In this document: piece by piece, positions 21,691 through 43,825 of the stretch
Layout: the number at the start of each line of letters is the position of its first letter
Position numbering within the stretch: position 1 is the stretch's first letter
Assembly (NCBI RefSeq): GCF_004322705.1
Contig: NZ_SIZZ01000002.1
Location: 1 to 64,000 of the forward strand
Reading direction: 5' to 3'
Origin: Dyella terrae
GTDB lineage: Bacteria > Pseudomonadota > Gammaproteobacteria > Xanthomonadales > Rhodanobacteraceae
DNA length: 64,000 nucleotides
The notes under the pieces: generated by a model
Told to the model about the DNA's origin: nothing
Seen by the model: the letters and a program-made list of their open reading frames with translations, nothing else
Database searches by the model: none
Position numbers and translations under genes: made by a program

Positions 21691-22954
21691 CGGGCCGCTT
21701 GCGCAGCGGGCGTTTCGAACTGGCTGCCGCCGGCCGAGGCCCAAAATAAAAGTAACCCAAAGAAAATGGCCTGAGAGCCGGAGTGCATGCTTACGTTAGA
21801 TGCGTGTCTCACGGGACGCGCAGGTTCAAGTGATCGCGGGTGAGGCTAACTAGCGTCCGACTGTTGGCTATCTGCCCCACCGCCGGGGTGGGGAACGACC
21901 GAACGTCGGCCTCGAAGGGGTGAGCGCAGCGAATAATCCATGGGCGACCACGCGCGGTTCGCACACCACACCCCAAAAACACCGTCATGCCTGCGCAGGC
22001 AGGCACCCAGTGACGACCGCACACGGTTGTCGCCCCACACTCTCACGTCGTCATGCCGGCGAAAGCCGGCATCCACGGGCGACCACGCGCAGTTTGCACC
22101 GCACATCAAAAAACACCGTCATGCCTGCGCAGGCAGGCACCCAGTGGCGACCGCACATGGTTATTGCCCCACACTCCCACATCGTCATGCCGGCGAAAGC
22201 CGGCATCCACGGGCGGCCACGCTCATCTGTGCGATACCGCGACCGGGCCGCTTACGCAGCGGGCGTTTCGACCGACTGCCGTCGGCCGAGTCACTTTTCT
22301 TTTGCTGGCCCAAAATAAAAGTAACCCAAAGAAAATGGCCTGAGAGCGGGGTGCGCGCTCACGTTAGATACGTGTCTCACGGGACACGCAGGCTCAAGTC
22401 ATCACCGCTGAGGCTAACTAACGTCCGACTGCTTGCTATCCGCCCCACCGCCGAAAGCGGGGTGGGGAACGACCCAACCTCGGCCCGGAAGGAGTGGGCG
22501 CAGCGAATAATCCAAGGGCGACCATACACGGTTGTCGCCCCACACTCCCACGTCGTCATGCCGGCGAAAGCCGGCATCCACGGGCGACCACGCGCAGATT
22601 GCACCGCACATCAAAAACCACCGTCATGCCTGCGCAGGCAGGCACCCAGTGGCGATCTCACACGCTTGCCACCCCACACTCCCATGTCGTCATGCCGGCG
22701 AAAGCCGGCATCCAGGGGCGATCAGGCTCATCTGTGCGATACCGCGACCGGGCCGCTTACGCAGCGGGCGTTTCGACCGACTGCCGTCGGCCGAGTCACT
22801 TTTCTTTTGCTGGCCCAAAATAAAAGTAACCCAAAGAAAATGGCCTGAGAGCCGGGGTGCGCTTCGTTAGATACGTGTCTCACGGGACGCGCAGGCTCAA
22901 GTCATCACCGCTGAGGCCAACTAACGTCCGACTGCTGGCTATCTGCCCCACCGC
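21691..22954. repeat. tandem array of about 500-bp intergenic repeats (two full copies and one partial)
   Basis: The unit starts at CGGGCCGCTT and includes AATAAAAGTAACCCAAAGAA, then CGTTAGATACGTGTCTCACGG and a GAGGCTAACTAACGTCCGAC stretch. Internal REP palindromes follow (CGTCATGCCTGCGCAGGCAG and GTCATGCCGGCGAAAGCCGG). Copies begin at 21691, 22244 and 22749. The second is exactly 505 bases long, the first about 553, and the third breaks off at 22954. Open frames inside it are out of keeping with coding. It appears to be a non-coding amplified repeat carrying REPs, without a transposase. Confidence 0.85.
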
Positions 22955-26001: not shown

Positions 26002-26886
26002 TCAGGGATTGACTGTCAACGCCGGTAACGTTTTTGCTGCAGCTGACGGCTTTCCCACAGGTATCTGTGCGGTTTTCCACTGCCCCCTTTCCTTGTCTTG
26101 AGGTACGTGCGGTGCAACCTCCGCAACCTTCATCTCGTAGAGCACCGCTGGATCCTGCTGCAGATCCCAAACATGAAAGATGTACGCATCTCCGAACTTC
26201 ACAGCGTTGTCCCATTCGTTCCTGGTGAGATAGAACCGCAAGGGTGAAGCAACTGTTGACTTGACCTCGATCAATCGGTTCAGCGGACCGAATTCGCCTG
26301 GATTAAAGGATAAAACGTCGTACCCGGCCGTATTGTCTTCAATGGCCATCCATTGAGGTGCCTTGTCGATACCTAATCCGCAAAGACGGCTGGCCTCGTG
26401 AGCAATCGATAGCTGCTCTGCCAAGCGGGCCCTGCGCATCCTTTCATCATCTCCCTTTCGACGCACGTGCGTCTGAACGCCGTCCCACCAATCGACGTCA
26501 TTCGATGAGGGTGGATCGTCAAGAAGATGTGCTTGTCTAAAGATGCTTCTAATATCCCGATACTCGTCTGAGCTCAGTCGCTTAATGAATCGTCCGCGGC
26601 CGAGTGTGATCAGCTTTGCCCACTCGGGCAGCTCTCTCAGTAGGATCGCGGCAAGGCACGTTCGGTAGAAATCCATGCCGCTTGATGGTGCATCACTTGG
26701 AACGAATTCGTGCAACTCGACCGCAGCCTCAAAGTCATAGCTAGCCGCGCTCGGGTTAGTTCTGCATATCGTATTCACGATCTCAGGGATGGAGGAATCA
26801 GGCCAGCGTTGTACATGGATGCGTAGAACGCGCAATCCTTCAAACGCTGGCATTGAGCATCGTCGCGAGAACGGGATAGATGTCAC
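26002..26886 (-). CDS. DUF3883 (nuclease-fold) protein, last gene of the candidate defence operon
   Basis: This encodes 294 residues, starting at a GTG that overlaps the helicase stop (GTGA); an ATG at 26853 is an alternative. Residues 155-245 form a DUF3883 domain with the line NTAGYDVLSF...RLIEVKS...RFYLTRNEWDNA...DAYIFHVW. D190, E207 and K209 arrange as the PD-(D/E)XK catalytic core. DUF3883 is known from restriction and anti-phage contexts, often beside helicases. The N-terminal 150 residues are unfamiliar. It is expected to act as a nuclease or DNA-binding subunit with the helicase (inference). Confidence 0.85.
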   Translation of the reverse strand: MTSIPFSRRCSMPAFEGLRVLRIHVQRWPDSSIPEIVNTICRTNPSAASYDFEAAVELHEFVPSDAPSSGMDFYRTCLAAILLRELPEWAKLITLGRGRFIKRLSSDEYRDIRSIFRQAHLLDDPPSSNDVDWWDGVQTHVRRKGDDERMRRARLAEQLSIAHEASRLCGLGIDKAPQWMAIEDNTAGYDVLSFNPGEFGPLNRLIEVKSTVASPLRFYLTRNEWDNAVKFGDAYIFHVWDLQQDPAVLYEMKVAEVAPHVPQDKERGQWKTAQIPVGKPSAAAKTLPALTVNP

Positions 26887-28790
26887 TCGTCCTCCGCATC
26901 GGCGGGGGCGCCGTGTCCTTCAAGCTCGGAAATCAAGTCCACCAAATCTTGCAGATCTACGTCCAGATCAATCGGATCGTCAGCCGTCTCCTCATCTAAT
27001 GCGAGGCTGTGAAGGTCGGGATCGTCCAGAAGTTCCTGAAGGCTCCGAATCTTTGACGCGAGACGCCGAGAAACCGATAGGTCAACGCTACCCAACAGCC
27101 TTGGCGCCTTTGATTGGTAGATATGGATATTTGTTTCAGTGTTCGGGGCGAGACCCAATCTGTGAATTCGATCGATAGACTGCAAATAGTGCGTCGAAAC
27201 GTAGCTGCGATCCAAGTAAATCGCATCATGGCACACAGTATGGAGGCTAATGCCCTCACCCGCCGCAGCGGGATTAGCAATTAATACCTTACACTCCGGG
27301 TCCACGTGGAAGCGAGTTAGCCTTCCTTCCCTAGAATCCGGATCCGTTGTGGCGCCTGTGGGAACACTTCCATAAATGCATACTGGGTTGAGGTCGGCAA
27401 TCAACCTTTCCAAATCAAGGATGTTTCCCGTGAACATTGTCCAGATGACCGATTTTCGCCCGTCCCGTGCGAGATTTCGGGCGTGGTCTGCCACTGCGCG
27501 CATCTTCGCGGATGCACCTTCTTCGATAACCTTGTCAACAATTCCAGATTCAAACTTCGCGTCATCAGCTACCATTGACTGAAGCGCTAGAGTGGGATTG
27601 GACGAAAGCTGGAGGAGACGCATTATGGATTTGCGTGCCTTGACGTAATCAGGACCCCCTCTTTCGCGTACCGCCTTAGTCATTTGGCGAAGGGCTTCGC
27701 TGCGGACGATCGAGTAGAGAGCAAGTTGTCCCTCGCTCATCTTCACCGAGTAGAAGTGTCGGGTCGCGCGCGGCAGTCCAAGCTCATGCTTGGTCGTCCT
27801 CACATAGAGTCGGCCAAGTACATCACGAGGAGACTCCCCTCTCTCTAGGCGAAGGTCCAAGCCCTGGCCGGGCCATAGAAATGCAAGTTGAGAGGCAATG
27901 TCATTTGGTCCTTGAGGCATTGGGGTGCCAGAAAGAATGTCGCGGCGCACGGGAAGCGAGGACGCGCTAAGCAGAAACGCTCCCCTCTGAGATGCCGTTC
28001 CTGCTTTCATGCGATGCGACTCGTCCAGGACCATATGGACGGGTTGCCTCGACAAATATGACGCAACAGTTGCTTGCTGACGTATGAGCAAGTCATACGA
28101 CATAAGGAAGCGTGTTGCGCCACTGCGCAGAAGTCGGTCGGTATCACTCTCGCTGCCATCGAGCTTGACAAATGGTTCCGCGCCCAGTCCGGGTGCGTCC
28201 GAGGCCATGCACTCATCTACGACAGACATCCATGCCAAGAACGCGGATTTCGGGCAGATCACTATCAGATGTTCGCCACTTTTTGCTGCAAGTAAGTGAA
28301 GTGCGAAGGTAACAGTTGTCTTTCCAGCTCCAGGCACAGAGAAGTTCGCGCCATGTGGGAGGGAAAGCAAATGAGTAATGTCGCGAATCTGAAATGGCTT
28401 CAACGATCTCTTTACGAAGCCCAATTCTACGAGTCGGCCTTGGACCTCTCCTTCGCTAAGCTCGAGCTGAAGCCTATTTCGGCAATCTCGAGTAGCTTTC
28501 AGTTCGCGAACGAACTCAGATAGCTTCCCCACTGCAGCTCCCATGGGGCGAAATCTGAATCCAAGCGACTGTTGCATTGATCGGCTACCAAAGTCGCGAA
28601 CAACTCCAAGGACGTCAGGCCAAGACATCTCGATTGTCGTCGCAGTGACTCTAATGTCAGTCCGTCCGACAATCTGAGCGTGCAAGCGCTCCCAAATTGG
28701 AGAGTTGTTGTCTCCCTCTTGCCGAGTGATCTTTCCAACAAGTCGGATTGCGTCGTACTCAATTTCGAGCTCTTGGGGAATGGAAGTCAT
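26883..28790 (-). CDS. SNF2-type DEAD/H-box helicase
   Basis: This encodes about 635 residues. The first 130 residues are a family-specific region. The Walker A motif is FSVPGAGKTT (about residues 150-159). The DEXH box is the unusual DESH (LDESHRMKAGTA), and motif III is SGTPMPQG. C-terminal motifs V/VI are NPAAAGEGISLH and QSIDRIHRLG. This is a SNF2/DISARM-like two-domain ATP-dependent translocase. The C-terminus is acidic. A GTG at 28799 that overlaps the ParB-like gene's stop by one base is an alternative start; I use the ATG at 28790. It overlaps the DUF3883 gene by 4 bases. Confidence 0.9.
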   Translation of the reverse strand: MTSIPQELEIEYDAIRLVGKITRQEGDNNSPIWERLHAQIVGRTDIRVTATTIEMSWPDVLGVVRDFGSRSMQQSLGFRFRPMGAAVGKLSEFVRELKATRDCRNRLQLELSEGEVQGRLVELGFVKRSLKPFQIRDITHLLSLPHGANFSVPGAGKTTVTFALHLLAAKSGEHLIVICPKSAFLAWMSVVDECMASDAPGLGAEPFVKLDGSESDTDRLLRSGATRFLMSYDLLIRQQATVASYLSRQPVHMVLDESHRMKAGTASQRGAFLLSASSLPVRRDILSGTPMPQGPNDIASQLAFLWPGQGLDLRLERGESPRDVLGRLYVRTTKHELGLPRATRHFYSVKMSEGQLALYSIVRSEALRQMTKAVRERGGPDYVKARKSIMRLLQLSSNPTLALQSMVADDAKFESGIVDKVIEEGASAKMRAVADHARNLARDGRKSVIWTMFTGNILDLERLIADLNPVCIYGSVPTGATTDPDSREGRLTRFHVDPECKVLIANPAAAGEGISLHTVCHDAIYLDRSYVSTHYLQSIDRIHRLGLAPNTETNIHIYQSKAPRLLGSVDLSVSRRLASKIRSLQELLDDPDLHSLALDEETADDPIDLDVDLQDLVDLISELEGHGAPADAEDE

Positions 28791-28798
28791 GCTATCCA

Positions 28799-30076
28799 CT
28801 AATCGAGAGCTGAAAGTTTCGAGCGGATACTAGCGCATTGATTCTCAATGGCATCCAGCTGCTTCCCAATCTTTGGATATGTGTCCGGGGCTGCGCGTGA
28901 CATGTCCACTGAGATCAATTTGCCGTGTGCTTGCGACAGAAGTTTAAGTGCTGCCTCTCCAGACTTCTGCCCTTTGTGCATTTCAATGGTGCTGCGAGCT
29001 GCCTCGATCAACGCTTCGACAGCCTCATCGCGAGTTTCTCCGTCCGTGAGTGCATCGACGATTGACTCGTAAGACGGAATCTCATCGTCAAGTTCGACAT
29101 CGATTTCAAAGTCTTGGCTTTGATCATGGTTATCTCTCGATTCGGAGTCAGTGGGTAGTCCAAGATCGACGGCCACTCTGTCCAGGACATCGCTTGCATA
29201 CTTGCCGATGGCCGGATTCATGTTGTAAAGGCGATCGCCCAGCTTCTCGCGATTCTCAAATAGCGACCAGGCCATAACTCGGCTCGCTTGAGTTAAGTGG
29301 GCGTCTTTGCCCTCAAGTAGCTTTGGCAAATCCTTGAAGAGCTGTTCTGCATCATCAGCTACGCGACCGTACTGACCCTCGGCTTTCGCCCATTCCTTCA
29401 GGTATAGGTCCACCTCGATGAGTGCCTGAAGTGAATTCTTAATTTCCTTCTCGGATCGATGGAGCCGGATGGCAACTTCCCTCGTCGAGCGACCCATTTG
29501 AACAAGGCGGTTGATGAGCTGGCCTTGACCTATCCAGTCGTAATCGAGTTTGGTTTCAGGGCGGCCTTGTAAGCTAGCCTCGATATCGACGATTTCATCG
29601 GTAGTCGCGTCGGCAGGAAGAACCATTACATCTACGTACGGCATGCCCAGCTCCCGCATTGCTGCGAGCCGCCGATTGCCGTTTACAACAACGCCAGAGG
29701 AGGTAACAAGAAGCGGTTCTCGTTGGCCGTCACGTTCTAGGACTTTGATCACGGGTACAACTGAGTCGGAAACAGCCTTCTTTGCTAGTCTCTCCAGCAG
29801 GCCATGCTGAATCTGCTGCACGCTCTCAACTTCTTGGCCCGAGGAAAAGAAATCCATCGAGACGCTTTCCCTCGCAAGGTACTCGTGCTGATCGGTGTAT
29901 GTCCGGAAATTCTCCATCCGGTAGACGGGGATGTCGATTGGTATCCGTATTACGGGAAGTTCAATCTTTGTATTTCTGAAGTCATAGAACGACTCCGCGC
30001 GAGAAGCGCATTTGACGGCGTTCTCGATCTGAATCTGTCGATCGAGCGGTGAGGTTAGTCGAACTGCGTATGACAT
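28799..30076 (-). CDS. ParB/sulfiredoxin-fold protein
   Basis: This encodes 425 residues. The region near residues 85-165 is the ParB/Srx domain, with the hallmark VVNGNRRLAAMREL (the conserved G-N/H-RR segment that binds or cleaves nucleotides). A helix-turn-helix follows around residues 180-215 (GRSTREVAIRLHRSEKEIKNSL). The remaining half is acidic and of unknown fold. Plasmid partition is unlikely, as no ParA is near; ParB-like proteins occur in several defence islands as nucleases or CTPases. GGGGGAAAGT precedes the ATG. It sits between the endonuclease and helicase genes. Confidence 0.85.
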   Translation of the reverse strand: MSYAVRLTSPLDRQIQIENAVKCASRAESFYDFRNTKIELPVIRIPIDIPVYRMENFRTYTDQHEYLARESVSMDFFSSGQEVESVQQIQHGLLERLAKKAVSDSVVPVIKVLERDGQREPLLVTSSGVVVNGNRRLAAMRELGMPYVDVMVLPADATTDEIVDIEASLQGRPETKLDYDWIGQGQLINRLVQMGRSTREVAIRLHRSEKEIKNSLQALIEVDLYLKEWAKAEGQYGRVADDAEQLFKDLPKLLEGKDAHLTQASRVMAWSLFENREKLGDRLYNMNPAIGKYASDVLDRVAVDLGLPTDSESRDNHDQSQDFEIDVELDDEIPSYESIVDALTDGETRDEAVEALIEAARSTIEMHKGQKSGEAALKLLSQAHGKLISVDMSRAAPDTYPKIGKQLDAIENQCASIRSKLSALD

Positions 30077-30096
30077 ACTTTCCCCCGTTTCCTAGT

Positions 30097-30558
30097 CTAA
30101 TCAAATGCGATCAATAGAATCGGCACAGTTATGACCCTGTCGAATACCGCCAGCTCTTTTGAGATTCGCTCAGCGTTAGCGATATTGCTGCCAATTTTTG
30201 CCGCAGCGGCTTTTGTAGGGACGGCAAGTGCGGCAGCTCGAATCTTCTTGCTTTGATGCAAGTACTGAAGCTTAAGAAGATCGTACGGCGCACGGCTGAT
30301 GTTCCCAGTCTGCAATTGGAACGCAAGGTCGTCCTTCATCGCAAACGTGGTCAGGTTAAGCTCCTGGTCGATCTTGACGTCGATGGCCCACGTTTGTGCT
30401 TGAAATTCCTTCGAGACGTGTTGCCTTATGTCGCTTGTGCACCTTGAGGCAACCCTGATCGCGGGTAGATCAAAGAGGCCCGTTACCCAGTCATACAAGC
30501 CGCGCTTACGCCATTCCGTGTCCCCATTATTGTGTGAATATATATGGTTAAGTTTCAT
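30097..30558 (-). CDS. BglII-like type II restriction endonuclease (possibly inactive)
   Basis: This encodes 153 residues. The segment MKDDLAFQLQTGNISRAPYD, followed by LLKLQYL, matches the BglII-type endonuclease core, in which an EVQ-like element and a Y-DLxK helix follow the catalytic Asp. Here the position of the catalytic Glu of BglII appears to be Gln (Q81 in FQLQ), from my recollection of that family. The protein is shorter than BglII (223 residues). Its start codon overlaps the 3' end of the methyltransferase gene by 11 bases, as expected for an R-M pair. Activity is uncertain. Confidence 0.65.
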   Translation of the reverse strand: MKLNHIYSHNNGDTEWRKRGLYDWVTGLFDLPAIRVASRCTSDIRQHVSKEFQAQTWAIDVKIDQELNLTTFAMKDDLAFQLQTGNISRAPYDLLKLQYLHQSKKIRAAALAVPTKAAAAKIGSNIANAERISKELAVFDRVITVPILLIAFD

Positions 30559-31420
30559 CCGTGAAAGGTCCTTGAGGGTCGTAAACTGGCTGGTTCATAG
30601 GGCGAACGCGAAGCGAGCCTGCATGAAGCTGCTCAATTCGATCCAATGCAATATCAACATATTCGCGCATGACGTCACACCCGTAAGCATGGCGACCATT
30701 TTTCAGTGCGGCGATGGCGCTTGATCCAACCCCGAGATAAGGGTCAAGGACAGAATCTCCAGGATTCGTTAGCGCCAGTATCAGTCGCTCAATCAGGCCC
30801 ACGGGAAACTGGCACGGATGGAGAGTTTTTTCTACATGGTTCGCTTTGACGTTTGGTATGTCCCAAATGTCGGTTGGATTCTTTCCTAGTGGATTGCTCG
30901 AGATTTTGCCTCGATTGGGGCCCTTGAAGTGCTTCTTGTTGGGATACTTGGAAGGGATCCTGACCGGATCGAGGTTGAAGGTATATTCGTCCTCCTTCGT
31001 AAACCAGAGAATCGTCTCATGGCGACCAGAAAATCTCTTCTGGCAGTGGAGTCCGTGTCCAAATGTCCAGACGATTCGATTCCGTAGTTTGAGGCCGTGG
31101 TTCTTAAAAATGCCGTAAAGTATGATGTCGAGAGGAAATATCTCTCCATCGTCAACGTGATTACCTACTTGCCAGCAAATGGATCCATTCGGGTGCAAAA
31201 GCCGGACCGCCTCAGCAATCGTGGCTGCCTGTTCCTCGATATAGGTTTCGCGAGACGTGCGCTTTTCGTATTTCTTGCCAATGTTGTATGGCGGCGACGT
31301 GACTACCAAGTGCATGCTCTCCTTCGGAAGGCTGCGCATGTATTCAAGGTTGTCGCGGCATTCAATCGACGCTACGAGTGGTCGCTTAAATGGAACTACT
31401 TTGGCTGTTTGTCGAGTCAT
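30548..31420 (-). CDS. DNA methyltransferase, SPPY (probably N4-cytosine) type
   Basis: This is a 290-residue class-beta methyltransferase. Motif IV TSPPYNIGKKYE (residues 41-52) comes before motif I (VLDPYLGVGSS near residue 240). The SPPY form of motif IV is typical of N4-cytosine enzymes. The region VWTFGHGLHCQKRFSGRHET, then ILWFTK, is the conserved W...HE..L segment of this class. It protects the host genome from the partner endonuclease. The ATG at 31420 (MTRQTAKVVPF) fits family length; the frame is open for 67 codons more but without coding character. It is the first gene of the five-gene operon. Confidence 0.9.
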   Translation of the reverse strand: MTRQTAKVVPFKRPLVASIECRDNLEYMRSLPKESMHLVVTSPPYNIGKKYEKRTSRETYIEEQAATIAEAVRLLHPNGSICWQVGNHVDDGEIFPLDIILYGIFKNHGLKLRNRIVWTFGHGLHCQKRFSGRHETILWFTKEDEYTFNLDPVRIPSKYPNKKHFKGPNRGKISSNPLGKNPTDIWDIPNVKANHVEKTLHPCQFPVGLIERLILALTNPGDSVLDPYLGVGSSAIAALKNGRHAYGCDVMREYVDIALDRIEQLHAGSLRVRPMNQPVYDPQGPFTDET

Positions 31421-32256
31421 GCAGAAATGTCCGGTGCGCGACTTCTGTAGAAGCAGCAAGGGGTAAAGAATCACGCAGTATTGGTGCCGCGCGGCACAGT
31501 GTATGCGAATTGGCCTGGAGTTCGGGATGTAGCTTCGAATGTCCAGAGATACACAGAATATTGTTGTGAAACCGATAATTACGCAATTCGCCAAAGCGGT
31601 GGTGCGCTGAGGGCGAGCCATCTACCAGATTAGATGCGGCTCGTATCACCCGGTGGGATCGGAAGACCCTCAGCGCGACGAGTGCGAACGCCAGTTGTAT
31701 GTATGGGCCAAGTCTGTTTGGAAGCGGGACTGAGGTTGTTTCCTCGGGACCGGCAATGCTCAAGCCCGCTGGATTCGGTGTGTCTCCACCGCGGTTCTGT
31801 CTCCTCAATATTACCAACTGGGCCACTAGAGGGCCTATAACATGGTTGCCTGAGTTCAGCAGATCGAGCAAATCAAGGCCCACTTGCCGTGGCCCCAGCT
31901 CAAGAAGGGAGCGAGATTGACACCTCCCCGCCCAAAGCGAGGAGAGAATTGGCTCCGCGAGCCATGCCGCTATACCACCTCACCGCCTAAACGACTGCAC
32001 AATCGGCGACACAATCGAAACCACCGCAGCAATCCCGGATATCGACAACCCAAACCCACTCAGCGATGCCATTCGCGAACAACGGGGACAAACAACGGGG
32101 GCAGGTTCAAACAACGGGGGCAGGTTCACTTCTCATACGCAAAGTTTCGCGCACGCGAGACGCGTACCCTATGCTCTGAGTACCGCCGTGATTGGACCAG
32201 CTCAGCTATCTCTCAGCCCCGGTGCGAGCGCTCTAAGGGCGCTTATCTTGTATCCA
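31421..32256. other. non-coding region with transposon-like repeats and a tRNA-like relic
   Basis: I find no supported gene in these 836 bases. They contain the presumed promoter of the defence operon, a 71-base tRNA-like sequence on the minus strand at 31764-31834, and short tandem repeats near 32091. The GC content rises back to the genome level from about 31900, which places the right edge of the imported segment here. Confidence 0.45.
32091..32128. repeat. 19-bp direct repeat, two copies
   Basis: AACAACGGGGGCAGGTTCA occurs twice head to tail (32091-32109 and 32110-32128), and a degenerate AACAACGGGGACA precedes it. Sequences of this kind (GGGGACAGGTTTAC-like) are often found beside REP-associated transposase genes in related bacteria, but no such gene is present here. 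Confidence 0.75.
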
Positions 32257-34434: not shown

Positions 34435-35568
34435 ATGCCCCCATCGCTTTCCCATCCAAGTGCCGTCGCCGTTGAAAACCTCGCGAAGCAATTCCGGGCG
34501 TTTGGCTGGTCCGTTGATGAAGAACCCGGTGATGGACACCCTCGGCCGGACCTCATTGCCGCCAAAGGGGCACTGCGCTACGTCGTGGAACTCAAGTCTG
34601 CTCCGGAAGCGCGATCAGATCGGGTCATTGCCCTGCTTTCGCAGGCCATTCTTCAATCCAGGCGATACGCCGAAGACTGGAATGGACATCCGTTGGCAGT
34701 TATCCACGTGAAGCAGCTTTCGCCCTTGCTCCGCCAGAAAGTGGAACAGTTTCATCGGGACTATGCATCGCAGTCTGCCATCGCCTTGGTATCCGACACG
34801 GACGGAAGCTACTTCATCGCGCCCGGCCTGGATGCGTTCAACAGCAAGCCACCCCGTAACGAGATCAGGGAAAAGGGCATCAAGCCACGCAGGGCATCCG
34901 AGCTCTTCTCGGATCTGAATCAGTGGATGCTTAAAGTCATGCTGGCCCCTGAAGTGCCCGAGCATCTGCTGCGAGCGCCGCGTAATGACTATGGATCGGT
35001 GAAAGAACTGGCCGACGCTGCCGATGTGTCTGCCATGAGTGCTTCGCGCTTCATCCAGCGTTTGCGGGAAGAGGGGTTTCTCGACGAATCCGGCGGCCTC
35101 TTTCGATTGGTCCGTCGACGCGAACTCTTTCGACGTTGGCAATCGGCGGCGATGCGGTCATCGCCCGAGTGGCGCATGTCCTTTCTGGTGCCAGCAGGAA
35201 TCCGCAAACTGCACCAGGCGGCGGAGAGTCTTGGTGCCTGCGTCGGTGTGTTCGCGGCCGCTGACATGCTGAAACTCGGCCACGTAAGTGGAGCGCCTCC
35301 GGTGCTTTATATGCAAAGACTTCAAGCGCCTCCCAGTTACTGGACGGGCCTGGTACCAAGCAAGCCTGGCGAAGAAGCGCAGCTCATTCTCAAGCAGGCG
35401 CCGGCGCCTCAATCACTGTTTCGCGCGGCCGTGCGTATCGACGAAGTCATGGTGTCAGACGTGATTCAAATCTGGCTCGACGCGTCGGCTAATCCCGCTC
35501 GCGGCATGGAGCAGGCCGACTTTTTGAAGCACGGCGTTCTATCGCAAGTCCTGGAGGGAAGCGAGTGA
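34435..35568 (+). CDS. AbiEi-like antitoxin/regulator with N-terminal nuclease-fold domain
   Basis: This encodes 377 residues. Residues 15-140 look like a PD-(D/E)XK domain: RPDLIAAKGALRYVVELKS, with D39, E52 and K54 at catalytic spacing. A winged helix-turn-helix follows near residues 185-215 (VKELADAADVSAMSASRFIQ, then RLREEGFL), and the C-terminal half resembles AbiEi antitoxins. The stop overlaps the next gene's GTG start (GTGA). In AbiE systems this protein neutralises the nucleotidyltransferase toxin and represses the operon. The N-terminal nuclease-like part is not standard for AbiEi; it may be structural only. Confidence 0.75.
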   Translation: MPPSLSHPSAVAVENLAKQFRAFGWSVDEEPGDGHPRPDLIAAKGALRYVVELKSAPEARSDRVIALLSQAILQSRRYAEDWNGHPLAVIHVKQLSPLLRQKVEQFHRDYASQSAIALVSDTDGSYFIAPGLDAFNSKPPRNEIREKGIKPRRASELFSDLNQWMLKVMLAPEVPEHLLRAPRNDYGSVKELADAADVSAMSASRFIQRLREEGFLDESGGLFRLVRRRELFRRWQSAAMRSSPEWRMSFLVPAGIRKLHQAAESLGACVGVFAAADMLKLGHVSGAPPVLYMQRLQAPPSYWTGLVPSKPGEEAQLILKQAPAPQSLFRAAVRIDEVMVSDVIQIWLDASANPARGMEQADFLKHGVLSQVLEGSE

Positions 35569-36374
35569 ACGATCGCTTCGCTTTTGCCAAGCTGGTCGAC
35601 ACCCTGTCTCCGTGGATACACCAGTTCGTGTTCGTCGGTGGTTGGGCGCACCGCTTGTATCGACTGCATCCCAGCGCGGATATACCGGCTTACCAGCCGT
35701 TGGCAACGTTGGATGCCGACGTCGCCTTTGCCGAGCGTGAGAAGCTGGAAGGCAACATCAAGGCGCGCCTGCAGGAGGCGGGTTTCCATGAGCAGCTCAC
35801 GGGCAATCATCGGCCTCCAGTATCGCAGTACGTGCTGGGTGAAGACGCGCCAACCGGCTTCTACGCGGAGTTCCTCACACCCTTGATTGGCCGCGCCACA
35901 GACCGAGAGGGGAGGCCCATCGCCACGCTCGGTCTTGCTGGTATCACGGCACAACGCCTTAGGTATCTGGAACTGCTGCTCAATGCTCCCTGGAGGGTCA
36001 CCATGGGAGAAGACTGGGGAACGTCATCCCCGCTGACACTAAGCATTCCCAATCCCGTCAGTTTCATCGTCCAGAAACTGCTTATTCATGACGATCGGGC
36101 TCGCGACAAGAAAGCACAGGACATCCTGTACATCCACGACACGCTGGAACTCTTTGCCGCCGATATGGATCGCCTTTCCGCCATCTGGAGAGATGAAGTG
36201 CGTGTTGCCATGCATGACAATTGGGTCCAGAACCTGTTGCGTGCCATGGACGACGTATTCGGTCAGACCAATGATCGGATTCGTGATGCCGCAGCCATCC
36301 CCCAGGGCCGCGAGATTGACCCAGGCCGGATGCGCGCTATGTGTCATGCGGTGCTGAAAGAAGTGCTGGCCTGA
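35565..36374 (+). CDS. AbiEii-like nucleotidyltransferase toxin
   Basis: This encodes 269 residues starting at a GTG that overlaps the antitoxin stop. The minimal nucleotidyltransferase signature is present: FVGGWAHRLY (G-G/S-x-A/L helix) and, downstream, TLDADVAF with the paired Asp residues that bind Mg2+. AbiEii toxins use GTP or CTP to modify tRNA and stop growth. Translational coupling to the antitoxin gene and the shared operator support a type IV-like toxin-antitoxin pair. The name AbiEii is by family resemblance only. Confidence 0.75.
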   Translation: MNDRFAFAKLVDTLSPWIHQFVFVGGWAHRLYRLHPSADIPAYQPLATLDADVAFAEREKLEGNIKARLQEAGFHEQLTGNHRPPVSQYVLGEDAPTGFYAEFLTPLIGRATDREGRPIATLGLAGITAQRLRYLELLLNAPWRVTMGEDWGTSSPLTLSIPNPVSFIVQKLLIHDDRARDKKAQDILYIHDTLELFAADMDRLSAIWRDEVRVAMHDNWVQNLLRAMDDVFGQTNDRIRDAAAIPQGREIDPGRMRAMCHAVLKEVLA

Positions 36375-36547: not shown

Positions 36548-37330
36548 CTAAACGGAGAACGTCTGTCCCTGGAAATCGGGACAGAGGGTACACCGGGACA
36601 GAATGCCACAAGATCCCAAGGCAACTTGGAAGAAGCCTTGATCATCTCGCCAGTTTGGCCCAAAGCTGTTCTGGACAATCCAAGTCGTCTCGGTGTATCC
36701 CACGAGGCAGACCGAGTGAACCCAAGGCCCGTCGGTGCGGGGGTCGGGTACGTACACGGCTTGCGCTGACGCATCGCTAAAATCTTTCCAAATGAGCATC
36801 TCGGCGACAATCGGGTGCTCAAGTATGGCAGCCCGGGCAACGTTGGGCCCAGGCAAATCAACTCCTCCAGAATACGCTCGCGTACCGCCCAGGCTGCATG
36901 AGGTCGAGGGGAAAGGATAGATTGGCGCGGGGTTTCCTTCGAGATATCCCCTCAAACGAATGCCATCGATTAGATCTTGAAGGTCTACCCCCTGCCTGCA
37001 TATTTCGTCTGGGTCGGATTCTCCTCTGTGTCCAACGCACGTATGCAGAAAGCCTGCGTCAACCATTGACGCTGCCTGTCCGGAAATTCGCAGTTTCGCT
37101 TCGAGTGCTGCACTAAACGCAAATGCTGAGCAAGCAGCACACTTTCCTTGATCTTTTGAGATTCCTAGTGCTCCAGGTTGATCTCTCCAGCTGAAAGACG
37201 ATACGCGGGGTGGCGCAGGGGCGTCCCGTCGAAGCGCGAATACCCGCGCATCAGTAGTTCGTCTTGTTGCTTTTGGCAGTGCACTCAGGGTGCGAGAAAT
37301 TCTTGCCGTCAACTCGGCTTTCGATTCCAT
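36548..37330 (-). CDS. papain-like C1 cysteine protease without signal peptide
   Basis: This is a 260-residue protein with a complete C1A active site: the stretch DQGKCAACSAF with Q61 and C67 six residues apart as in papain, H205 in GPWVHSVCLVGY, and N221 in VQNSFGPNW. The N-terminal 45 residues are a basic, Arg-rich segment rather than a secretion signal or typical prodomain. The ATG at 37330 has GAGG 7 bases upstream; a TTG at 37342 overlapping the previous stop is possible. It follows a lipoprotein gene directly. It may be a secreted effector needing another export route (inference). Confidence 0.85.
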   Translation of the reverse strand: MESKAELTARISRTLSALPKATRRTTDARVFALRRDAPAPPRVSSFSWRDQPGALGISKDQGKCAACSAFAFSAALEAKLRISGQAASMVDAGFLHTCVGHRGESDPDEICRQGVDLQDLIDGIRLRGYLEGNPAPIYPFPSTSCSLGGTRAYSGGVDLPGPNVARAAILEHPIVAEMLIWKDFSDASAQAVYVPDPRTDGPWVHSVCLVGYTETTWIVQNSFGPNWRDDQGFFQVALGSCGILSRCTLCPDFQGQTFSV

Positions 37331-37338
37331 GGCCAGCC

Positions 37339-38826
37339 TCAAAATCCCGCGCCGTTCTGAACGGACAGCGCCTTCTGGAGCGCCTCTTCAGCTTGCAAAT
37401 TTGTGAGCTTGGCCTGCGCCAGGGTGGTTTCAGCCTGAAGCGGCGCAAGCTCATTCTGATTTGCGTTATTCGCCTTCGCAGTGGCAAGCGTGTTCTTTGC
37501 TTGAAGTAGGTTGGATTGGGCCGTTACTTCGGCCAATTTGGCGCTGTCTATCGCGGCGGGGATACCCGCCAATGACGCGGCTACTTGCTTCGCGCCGCTC
37601 GCAACGGACGCCGCGGCTGCCGAGGTATCTGCGAGTGCCACCATCGTGGGCACGCCGTTTCCGTCCGCCGTCATGTCCATGGTGGATGACTTGAACAGAC
37701 CGCCTTTCGCAGGTACTGGATAGACCCGCCCAATTTGCAGAACTGGGCCCTCCCAGATCACGACCTCATTTGAACCTGTGCCGCACGGCTTGGCGATACA
37801 CATGAGGAGCTTTGACTGTCGTGGGAATCGCACCGGAACTCCGCTTTGTATATCGAGAGATGGTGCGCAACCATGGTCGAGCGAGTCATTGGTACCGCAG
37901 GCGGTCGTTTCGGGCAGCGGGGCGCTGACAATCCCATGTAGGTCCGACGGCTCAATCAAAAAATAAACTCGAAACTGGTCTCGAGGGTCCGATTTATCGC
38001 CCGCCTTGACCGTACCCCATTTTGGACTTCCAGTTGCGGAGACCAAGTCGGCGGGAATCTCTTTGGCGCCACTTGCAATGTGTCTATCTAAAGGAAACTC
38101 ATAAGTCTGTGTGTCGGATGTCCGTTCCAGATAGTCGGCAAGTGACTTCTCATCAGCTGACATTTTGGTGGCTATATCTTGTTGCTGCTTGATCGCCTCG
38201 GTTAGCCTCGACTTGAACTGTTTGTCGGCATCGCGTCCCCAAACCGTAAGTTGGCTGGTCATTAAAGTTACCGTTCTGGTGGCGACAACAAGCTGGTCGC
38301 TCTCCTTTTTCAAAGACTCTTGCAGCAACTTGATCTGGCTAAGCGCATACGGAATTCCATCCGGATCGCTATCGGATTTTCCCGAGCACGCCGGTGAATA
38401 TCCGGCGCCAGCTGCGAAAAGCGCAGCGATTGAGGCAACCGTGCTAACAGTGTCGGCAATCATCGGCCCGGCTTGATTGGTCACAGTTGTTGATAACGAG
38501 AGCGAGCGGCCATCAGTGCCGTAGGTACTCTTGACGCTACTGGTGTTTAGCCAGCCATTGGACCTTAGTGTGTATCTGGCGTCTGCATCGACCGAAGTCC
38601 CAGCCTTCACAACGGCAACAACTTGGCCTTTCAACGGACCATTACAACTTATAACTCTGCGAGTGACGGCGATGGAGAAGGTGGTCTTCGGCAGGTTGTA
38701 TGGAACGCCGATCGCGGTCTTCGGATCCATGTCGTTCAATTTCGTAACCGAGATGCCGCTGCATGACGCGCTCAGGCAAGCCGCGATCACTATCGACGGA
38801 AACTTGAATCGATTCGCTGCTTGCAT
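37339..38826 (-). CDS. large lipoprotein upstream of the C1 protease
   Basis: This encodes 495 residues with a signal peptide and lipobox (IVIAACLSASCSGIS), giving a lipidated Cys near residue 22. The middle has beta-rich and Cys-containing regions. The last 120 residues, rich in Ala, Gln, Leu and Lys, should form a long coiled coil (QAKNTLATAKANNANQNELA...TLAQAKLTNLQAEEALQ), an arrangement like that of surface or periplasm-spanning proteins. Its stop is 8 bases from the protease start. GC content is lower than in the core genome, in line with acquisition by transfer. No named family is recognised. Confidence 0.7.
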   Translation of the reverse strand: MQAANRFKFPSIVIAACLSASCSGISVTKLNDMDPKTAIGVPYNLPKTTFSIAVTRRVISCNGPLKGQVVAVVKAGTSVDADARYTLRSNGWLNTSSVKSTYGTDGRSLSLSTTVTNQAGPMIADTVSTVASIAALFAAGAGYSPACSGKSDSDPDGIPYALSQIKLLQESLKKESDQLVVATRTVTLMTSQLTVWGRDADKQFKSRLTEAIKQQQDIATKMSADEKSLADYLERTSDTQTYEFPLDRHIASGAKEIPADLVSATGSPKWGTVKAGDKSDPRDQFRVYFLIEPSDLHGIVSAPLPETTACGTNDSLDHGCAPSLDIQSGVPVRFPRQSKLLMCIAKPCGTGSNEVVIWEGPVLQIGRVYPVPAKGGLFKSSTMDMTADGNGVPTMVALADTSAAAASVASGAKQVAASLAGIPAAIDSAKLAEVTAQSNLLQAKNTLATAKANNANQNELAPLQAETTLAQAKLTNLQAEEALQKALSVQNGAGF

Positions 38827-43096: not shown

Positions 43097-43310
43097 GTCA
43101 TGCCTGCGCAGGCAGGCACCCCGTGGCGACCACATTCACCAACGCCTCACCCCATCACGTCGTCATGCCGGCGAAAGCCGGCATCTAGTTGCGACCACGG
43201 GCATTCGGAGCGCAGCGACTGGAGCCCATGCGTGGACACAAGAACGCGTTCGGACAGGCAGAGGTACATACGGCCACGTCGTCACTGGGTGCCTGCCTGC
43301 GCAGGCATGA
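43097..43310. repeat. REP palindromes flanking the 64-bp array
   Basis: REP units of both sub-families appear: GTCATGCCTGCGCAGGCAGG at 43097, GTCATGCCGGCGAAAGCCGG at about 43163, and the reverse of the first at about 43285-43310. Each could form a hairpin. No gene is present among them. Confidence 0.8.
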
Positions 43311-43350
43311 CGGAGTTTGATGGTGAGGTGGAAATGAATGTTGTCGCAGC

Positions 43351-43825
43351 TGGATGCCGGCTTTCGCCGGCATGACGACATGGAGGGAGAGGTGCTGATC
43401 GGTGTGGTCGCCGCTGGATGCCGGCATTCGCCGGCATGACGACATGGAGGGAGAGATGGTGATCGGTGTGGTCGCCTCTGGATGCCGGCTTTCGCCGCCA
43501 TGACGACATGGAGGGAGAGGTGCTGATCGGTGTGGTCGCCCCTGGATGCCGGCTTTCGCCGGCATGACGACATGGATGGAGAGGTGCTGATCGGTGTGGT
43601 CGCCTCTGGATGCCGGCTTTCGCCGGCATGACGACATGGATGGAGAGGTGCTGATCGGTGTGGTCGCCGCTGGATGCCGGCTTTCGCCGGCATGACGGCA
43701 TGGAGGGAGAGGCGCTGATTGGTGTGGTCGCCACTGGATGCCGGCTTTCGCCGGCATGACGACATGGAGGGAGAGGTGCTGATCGGTGTGGTCGCCACTG
43801 GGTGCCTGCCTGCGCAGGCATGACG
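43351..43825. repeat. tandem array of seven 64-bp REP-containing units
   Basis: The phrase TGGATGCCGG occurs at 43351, 43415, 43479, 43543, 43607, 43671 and 43735, always exactly 64 bases apart. An eighth, variant REP (TGGGTGCCTGCC) begins at 43799. Each unit is a REP palindrome followed by a spacer with GAGGTGCTGATCGGTGTGG. Differences among units are single bases (e.g. CATTCG for CTTTCG at 43425, GCCGCC for GCCGGC near 43498). All palindromes point in the same direction. Confidence 0.92.

Follow-up and report, generated by a model that had tools for sequence, protein, structure and literature searches.

A conserved five-gene restriction-type unit in Dyella terrae joins a BglII-like protein without catalytic acids to a portable ParB-SNF2 module

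The first 64,000 nucleotides of Dyella terrae contig NZ_SIZZ01000002.1 (hereafter the window) contain five adjacent genes for a DNA methyltransferase (MTase), a BglII-like protein of restriction endonuclease (REase) fold, a ParB-like protein, a SNF2-family ATPase and a DUF3883 protein (Table 1). The gene order is conserved in other bacteria, the BglII-like protein has lost its catalytic acids in all members examined and is nevertheless maintained by selection, and the ParB-SNF2 pair also stands beside three other kinds of REase homolog that lack one or both of these acids. We infer that the five genes probably form an ATP-dependent restriction-modification (R-M) system with a role in defence, in which the dead REase reads the site, the ParB-like and SNF2 proteins load and move, and DUF3883 cuts; we hold this reading with reasonable, though far from full, confidence.

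Table 1 Genes of the five-gene unit, with positions in the window
Product	Position	Strand	Length (aa)	Assignment	Predicted role
MTase, beta-class amino-methyltransferase	30548-31420	-	290	Pfam N6_N4_Mtase, E 2.5e-54	Modification enzyme (predicted)
BglII-like protein	30097-30558	-	153	Pfam Endonuc-BglII, E 2.2e-8	Site reader (predicted)
ParB/KorB/Noc-like protein	28799-30076	-	425	AlphaFold fold	NTP-gated loader/clamp (predicted)
SNF2-family ATPase	26883-28799	-	638	Pfam SNF2-rel_dom, E 1.8e-12	Double-stranded DNA translocase (predicted)
DUF3883 (NOV_C) protein	26002-26886	-	294	Pfam, E 5.2e-15	Nuclease (predicted)

An earlier note on this DNA, made from its letters and open reading frames (ORFs), had delimited the five minus-strand genes, and ORF analysis gave the same coordinates and junctions: an 11-base overlap between the MTase and BglII-like genes, a 20-base gap before the ParB-like gene, a 1-base contact between ParB and SNF2, and a 4-base overlap between SNF2 and DUF3883. 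For the MTase ORF, an alternative upstream-extended start at 31621 is also listed. The same note had let its proposal fall if the five genes were never linked elsewhere; they are linked, in the order MTase, BglII-like, ParB, SNF2, DUF3883, in 15 further distinct loci (L007, L008, L009, L010, L012, L013, L014, L015, L017, L019, L025, L027, L028, L031 and L032). Chance clustering is ruled out because this order is conserved. Twelve loci came from a comparison of the ParB protein with 84,980 genomes, one per species, a scan with back-translated short peptides of this one protein that recovers close relatives only; further loci were added from a Paracoccus plasmid and from viral contigs, and one locus search kept the best 80 of 135. 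Neighbouring genes were labelled by script from our own profiles and single-sequence queries, and an unlabelled gene is not equivalent to an absent one. Because the loci were collected with ParB and SNF2 queries, the presence of this pair is given by construction, and the other neighbours are independent. Some loci are truncated: the DUF3883 ORF of L014 is short (162 residues, with its stop 22 bases short of the contig end), that of L027 runs to the contig end, L011, L026 and L030 end with their contigs, and L018 begins within ParB.

Carriers of the loci include Bacteroidota, Verrucomicrobiota, alpha- and gammaproteobacteria and a Candidatus Obscuribacter. Median identity to the window proteins, taken over 14 of the 15 loci (L014 omitted), is 77 per cent for the MTase, 61 for SNF2, 60 for the BglII-like protein, 49 for ParB and 46 for DUF3883. 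Both ParB and SNF2 are rare in the phylum of the window: the ParB profile matched in 5 of 398 genomes, once at E 7e-4, and the SNF2 profile (E 1e-60) in three of 398 (G000, G152 and G367). Neither protein had a match in five genomes of the same genus, and phage records gave a single weak ParB match.

The AlphaFold model of the BglII-like protein (predicted local distance difference test score, pLDDT, 94.3; 18 aligned proteins as input) superposes on BstYI with a Z of 21.6 and a root-mean-square deviation of 2.0 over 152 residues; against BglII and BamHI the Z is 21.0 and 17.9, the first row outside the family has a Z of 5.8, and Foldseek agrees with this fold assignment. However, the window protein has F72 and Q81 where comparison proteins carry Asp and Glu or Asp. 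All 18 ParB-linked members have Phe, Thr or Ser at the Asp position, and their Glu is replaced by Gln in 15 and by Cys in 3, whereas eight of eight PF09195 proteins from other genomes keep the Asp together with Glu (6) or Asp (2) in a joint alignment. These eight were drawn from 398 genomes with ten matches, the other two being the window protein and one from G367, which carries an L025-type locus; the draw has the same size as that of the SNF2 search above, the identity of the two being unproven. In a profile alignment the family motif A-F-Q-L-Q-T-G-N lies on A-I-E-V-Q-F-G of BstYI and M-E-F-E-T-G-N of BamHI, and the aligned acids are, we take it, the metal-binding ones of BamHI, BglII and BstYI. 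On these catalytic positions we rejected an ordinary live REase. The earlier note had proposed a type II R-M core with extra genes: a conserved five-gene unit of restriction type is indeed present, but with the catalytic acids lost in all members examined the core is not intact.

Loss of the acids has not been followed by decay. The ratio of nonsynonymous to synonymous substitution (dN/dS) is 0.010 and 0.033 in two close pairs, values that are rough because dS is above 1 (a third pair lay beyond the method), and this is strong purifying selection on the BglII-like protein. N86 and S88, which align with BamHI N116 and S118, are invariant in alignment A5 (L019 is left out of it and shows the same Gln motif in alignment A2). 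As the BamHI residues are presumably base contacts, the BglII-like protein probably still reads a BglII-like site. The likeness to type II systems of the BglII, BstYI and BamHI kind therefore extends to adjacent MTase and REase-fold genes and to a QTGN.S motif that aligns with ETGN.S of BamHI; the differences from the BglII family are that 0 of 18 members have either acid and that three further conserved genes, including an ATPase, belong to the unit.

The MTase, whose SPPY motif recurs in 19 of 19 related loci, is predicted to be a beta-class amino-methyltransferase producing N4-methylcytosine or N6-methyladenine, and its nearest solved relative is M.RsrI (E 6e-38). The SNF2 protein retains the helicase motifs PGAGKT, DExH and QSxDRxxRLG, and its closest solved relatives by profile are a Sulfolobus Rad54-like protein (E 6e-29) and ISW1 (E 2.7e-28). 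In the DUF3883 protein, the only PF13020 match in the window genome, the PD-(D/E)XK motif is intact: 15 of 15 proteins share E157, GYD190, E207 and K209, and a GYD/GFD..ExK motif is present in 11 of 11 further loci (L076 repeats L075). From this motif DUF3883 is likely to be the nuclease of the window system, and the domain was termed a novel REase domain in PMC3710099.

Pfam offers no convincing match for the ParB-like protein, whose weak NCBIfam match to TIGR00180 (E 0.0021) lies below the cut-off. Its AlphaFold model (pLDDT 86.5) has the ParB N-domain fold plus a helix-turn-helix, and over these two parts it best matches KorB (Z 10.4), the Caulobacter ParB-parS structure (10.3) and Noc (10.0), with pNOB8 ParB-N also within this range; sulfiredoxin matches more weakly (Z 6.4 and below). 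The earlier note had counted two extra nuclease-like proteins. The model of the ParB-like protein, however, better suits a DNA-binding protein of ParB/KorB/Noc type, and a nuclease role was rejected for it; the likely nuclease is therefore DUF3883 alone. Box II of canonical ParB reads GERR, and its Glu is, on our assumption, E102 of the Caulobacter protein. The corresponding N132-G-N-R-R136 of the ParB-like protein is invariant in 18 of 18 members. In PMC8367383 the Caulobacter E102A mutant is clamp-locked and defective in reopening, and by analogy one may speculate that the Asn of GNRR parallels this locked state.

The earlier note treated the helicase, ParB and DUF3883 genes as an extension of this particular R-M pair. 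This does not hold: the ParB-SNF2 pair, in most cases accompanied by DUF3883, forms a portable module that has R-M partners of at least five kinds. This ParB was present in 61 loci; setting aside nine with duplicate ParB DNA left 52, and in 50 of these SNF2 is the next labelled gene after ParB. By partner the 52 comprise 18 loci with an MTase and a dead BglII protein, six with a protein here called X, seven with a protein Z, eight with type III Mod-Res, two with a half-Sau3AI protein, two with an 860-residue protein, and nine that are other or cut (L016, L018, L037, L039, L043, L046, L068, L077 and L087). DUF3883 is labelled in 33 of the 52. Among the loci with a dead BglII, X or Z protein, all whose sequence extends far enough have DUF3883 downstream of it; in L038 it is separated from SNF2 by an IS481 transposase gene.

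Three of these partners likewise appear to be disarmed. Protein X (about 285 residues; L034, L035, L036, L038, L044 and L074) matches the same PADLOC REase_II model as a second protein, Y (E 2e-21 for X, three scanned, versus 2e-137 for Y), and aligns with Y at an hhalign probability of 99.5. Y has D and D/E-x-K in six of six sequences, whereas X has V/I and I-x-K in six of six. The Y count covers five of 18 plasmid records with a Y-like match (that of L035 and four fetched) and L044; a Kozakia plasmid record, L152, was left out. In that record, which accompanies L036, Y is split into two open frames (2093-2951), whereas the plasmid carries intact X, ParB and SNF2 genes, and DUF3883 is short. 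For four other plasmids, the annotated regions flanking Y (8.6-10.9 kb) list no ParB-SNF2 pair, the PLSDB annotation being incomplete. Protein Z (about 310 residues; L075, L078-L082 and L085) has matches to DpnII and to RE_BanI, the latter at E 1.4e-10 in the best case, and three of five Z proteins scanned pass the BanI cut-off. Relatives of BanI have FD and then E(V/I)SF in five of five (L158 was left out of the matches counted), and this Asp is missing from Z in seven of seven; a search of the PDB with the Z profile returned no REase, and one Z protein used as a query had no match among plasmids. The third partner is half of a Sau3AI-type enzyme. In L065, a lactobacillar plasmid, the 247-residue gene directly after ParB-SNF2 matches only positions 273-526 of a 527-residue Sau3AI-type model, and in L041 (Priestia) a 512-residue gene matches positions 272-469 and aligns to Sau3AI residues 270-478. 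Both proteins match the C half of the full-length Sau3AI homolog that lies nearby in L041 (E 6e-47 and 1e-34) and its N half not beyond chance; at DFQELGIELK of that N half they have N/Q for the D and S/K for the E. The N half presumably holds the catalytic site of Sau3AI, in agreement with its match to MutH. The SNF2 proteins of L041, L065 and L068 bear an N-terminal PLD domain.

The type III loci (L040, L042, L060, L061, L063, L084, L086 and L089) have Mod-Res followed by ParB and SNF2, and those with annotation come from Enterococcus, Lactococcus and lactobacilli. They are a four-gene form of type III R-M of which we met no description in the literature. LlaFI, a type III system, is said to have extra downstream genes. 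The Res TPDF..ETK motif is intact in the two loci read, and DUF3883 is labelled in none of the eight. Mod of L084 occupies two open frames, and the SNF2 gene of L086 (6204-9306) is interrupted by an insertion-like 353-residue ORF on the opposite strand.

Other neighbourhoods deserve mention in their own right. In the enterococcal plasmids L062 (2351-8012) and L067 (2325-8000), the 860-residue protein occupies the R-M position before ParB-SNF2; it has no PADLOC match, and in L067 it has a sigma-70 region 4-like match. In L043 (4780-12352), ParB-SNF2-DUF3883 adjoins a divergent gene for a HATPase_c_3 protein and a gene for a Methyltransf_35 protein, with no recognised REase and an N6/N4-MTase-like gene downstream. 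The Exiguobacterium plasmids L039 and L068 carry ParB-SNF2 of the PLD-fused kind (the PLD checked in L068 only), then a protein of about 1,120 residues that in L039 has bacterial Ig repeats, near ParA genes and a C5-MTase. The rhizobial plasmids L064 and L066 have a shorter SNF2 gene with DGQHR and radical SAM genes, and in L066 also ParB; this is another ParB/DGQHR-SNF2 cluster.

The distribution of nucleases across these loci follows a pattern. A dead REase is accompanied by a nuclease within the module, either DUF3883 or a PLD domain fused to SNF2, whereas modules beside type III Mod-Res have none labelled. Read most simply, the module depends on two functions, site recognition and cutting, the first of which is supplied by the dead REase. 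On this basis we propose the following course of events for the window system. The MTase would mark the sites of the host, and the dead BglII-fold protein would bind the same site when it is unmodified, by family likely xGATCx. Bound there, it may nucleate the ParB-like protein, which would close on DNA with bound nucleotide and recruit or load the SNF2 motor, roles that the ParB fold and the SNF2 motifs fit. SNF2 would then travel along the duplex, and the DUF3883 nuclease, moving with SNF2 or activated by it, would cut away from the site. The site, the formation of a complex, the order of the steps and defence itself are our inference. Because the window genome has no other PF09195 match, its locus is the cleanest case for a dead protein as sole reader.

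A wider proposal, for which we see about even chances, is that this is a general, as yet undescribed kind of restriction, in which a portable ParB-SNF2 engine with DUF3883 or PLD adopts dead REases as interchangeable readers, at least four REase families having been disarmed independently of one another; motor-driven, ATP-dependent restriction could then be built on any type II specificity. What distinguishes one restriction type from another is which component recognises the site and which one cuts. In the present loci the classical cutting enzyme has, it seems, lost its activity several times over while remaining in use for recognition, and cleavage seems to have been taken over by a motor complex with a ParB-type switch among its parts; such repeated disarming beside one motor module is the point likely to surprise a specialist. 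If true, it would be another way of coupling recognition to cleavage, it would give ParB clamps a role in immunity, and it would explain some 'R-M systems' whose REase would test inactive.

Several observations weigh against an ATP-dependent system with a dead reader. Live-type nucleases occur near some dead ones, namely Y near X in L044 and L035, a DUF4928/REase_II protein beside a C5-MTase in L034, a GIY-YIG gene near X in L038, and a full-length Sau3AI homolog near the half-Sau3AI gene in L041; in such loci the ParB-SNF2 module may be an accessory to a working R-M system. There is no recognised reader in L037, L039, L043, L068 and L087, and L016 has MTase-ParB with no BglII-like gene. At 7551-10468 of L016 the match of the SNF2 ORF after ParB is confined to the first 190 residues, and a TonB-receptor Plug protein is encoded by the ORF that follows; L016 is a broken or recombined locus. 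The evidence for disarming is also uneven. The catalytic residues of Y and BanI were assigned by motif; Z retains the second acid, as Asp in place of Glu, falls below Pfam cut-offs in L081 and L082 (of five Z scanned) and is split over two open frames in L080. The half-Sau3AI gene of L041 is convergent with ParB-SNF2, and the half-Sau3AI proteins still match Pfam MutH, as would be expected of a MutH-like non-catalytic half. Box II of the ParB-like protein differs from that of canonical ParB. Lastly, the case for DUF3883 as a nuclease consists of its motif and one line in the accessible part of PMC3710099.

Part of this evidence favours a serious rival, to which we give a small but real chance, namely that ParB-SNF2(-DUF3883) is a second-line guard that watches an R-M system and kills or degrades on its failure or on broken, unmethylated DNA, with the dead REase as a decoy or sensor for phage anti-restriction proteins. 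The live-type enzymes near dead X and half-Sau3AI proteins fit a guard, as does the module after type III Mod-Res, whose Res motif is intact in the two loci read. However, the one PF09195 match of the window genome is the dead protein itself, leaving no primary REase of that family to guard, and L074, L081 and L082 consist, in order, of a C5-MTase, the dead REase homolog, ParB, SNF2 and DUF3883, with no live partner matching the REase queries used (other REase families were not sought there). It is improbable that the BglII-like protein is instead an active nuclease with a relocated active site, that is, a type II REase with ATP-dependent helpers. Active sites of the PD-(D/E)XK fold do migrate, and all 18 members share D93, K96 and E135; but D93 and K96 look structural, because BstYI has D and K there too in the alignment, and the loss of both acids in every member is accompanied by comparable losses in other REase families beside the same module. 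Least probable of all is a regulatory or maintenance cassette for ParB-based DNA organisation or silencing at methylation-controlled sites, which the ParB/KorB-like fold and the many plasmid copies would suit, but which sits poorly with an R-M-type MTase combined with an intact nuclease motif in most loci, with the existence of chromosomal copies and with the lack of ParA among the five genes.

The earlier note could match the combination to no named system, and our comparisons bear this out. PADLOC gave generic MTase, REase and helicase matches and DUF3883-bearing proteins of other systems for the five proteins, and no model for the set. CglI and NgoAVII have an R protein that is a PLD-type endonuclease, and no PLD domain was found among the Pfam matches of the five window proteins. 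These ATP-dependent R-M systems comprise an MTase, a nuclease protein and a helicase-like ATPase (PMC5737866, PMC4267653), and CglI has been proposed to translocate on DNA (PMC5737866); as far as the accessible parts of these papers go, their R protein is an endonuclease, with no ParB and no dead REase. The nearest precedent found is in PMC3710099, which describes R-M operons with a SNF2 helicase fused to DUF3883, sitting with a HEPN/DUF499 ATPase family; the likeness is SNF2 and DUF3883 in an R-M context, and the difference is that no ParB or dead REase is described in its accessible part. The window SNF2 is weakly similar to ZorD, DpdE and DrmD/DrmA, but no core partner genes of Zorya, Dpd, DISARM or Druantia are among the five (a DruM2-like C5-MTase is present in L044). 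For DISARM, no DUF1998 (DrmB) or PLD (DrmC) match was found in the five proteins or the eight window neighbours scanned with Pfam, and for BREX no PglZ or BrxC match was found in the five proteins, the PADLOC list for the MTase being the best 25 of 68. Unlike the type III loci above, the window five have neither Mod nor Res. Membership of DISARM, BREX, CglI-type or type III systems was thus rejected in each case, the core partners not being among the five genes. Among CTP-gated clamps (PMC8367383, PMC12704722, PMC11790492, in their accessible parts), ParB, KorB and Noc share the N-domain and helix-turn-helix with the window protein, which differs in its GNRR box II, its C-terminal helical part and its R-M context; SNF2 is not mentioned in the accessible main text of the ParB-fold survey PMC12704722. 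No description of the five-gene set was found in open-access literature on DUF3883, ParB, SNF2 and R-M (REBASE and most subscription papers lay outside this scope), including the accessible parts of the nearest papers, PMC10853773, PMC12839542, PMC3710099, PMC3459991 and PMC12704722.

The earlier note had placed the genes in a segment of visibly lower GC. The content is indeed 0.505-0.558 over 25-32 kb of the window, against about 0.61-0.66 to the left (14-25 kb), but to the right the values are mixed (in sequence 0.580, 0.649, 0.582 and 0.605, then 0.525-0.566 at 36-39 kb), and the stretch therefore has no sharp right edge. Two flanking proteins used as queries for an empty site had no match in the five same-genus genomes, and insertion is thus without support. 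Beyond the operon, positions 34435-36371 (plus strand) encode a helix-turn-helix-like protein and then an NTP_transf_8 nucleotidyltransferase, which recall AbiEi/AbiEii-type pairs. At 36548-38826 (minus strand), in a lower-GC stretch, a papain-family cysteine protease (C1) adjoins a 495-residue lipoprotein-like protein. ORF translations at about 21846-22850 and at 43163-43798 contain HAGESRHP / CRRKPAS-like repeats, which are typical of repeated palindromic intergenic elements.

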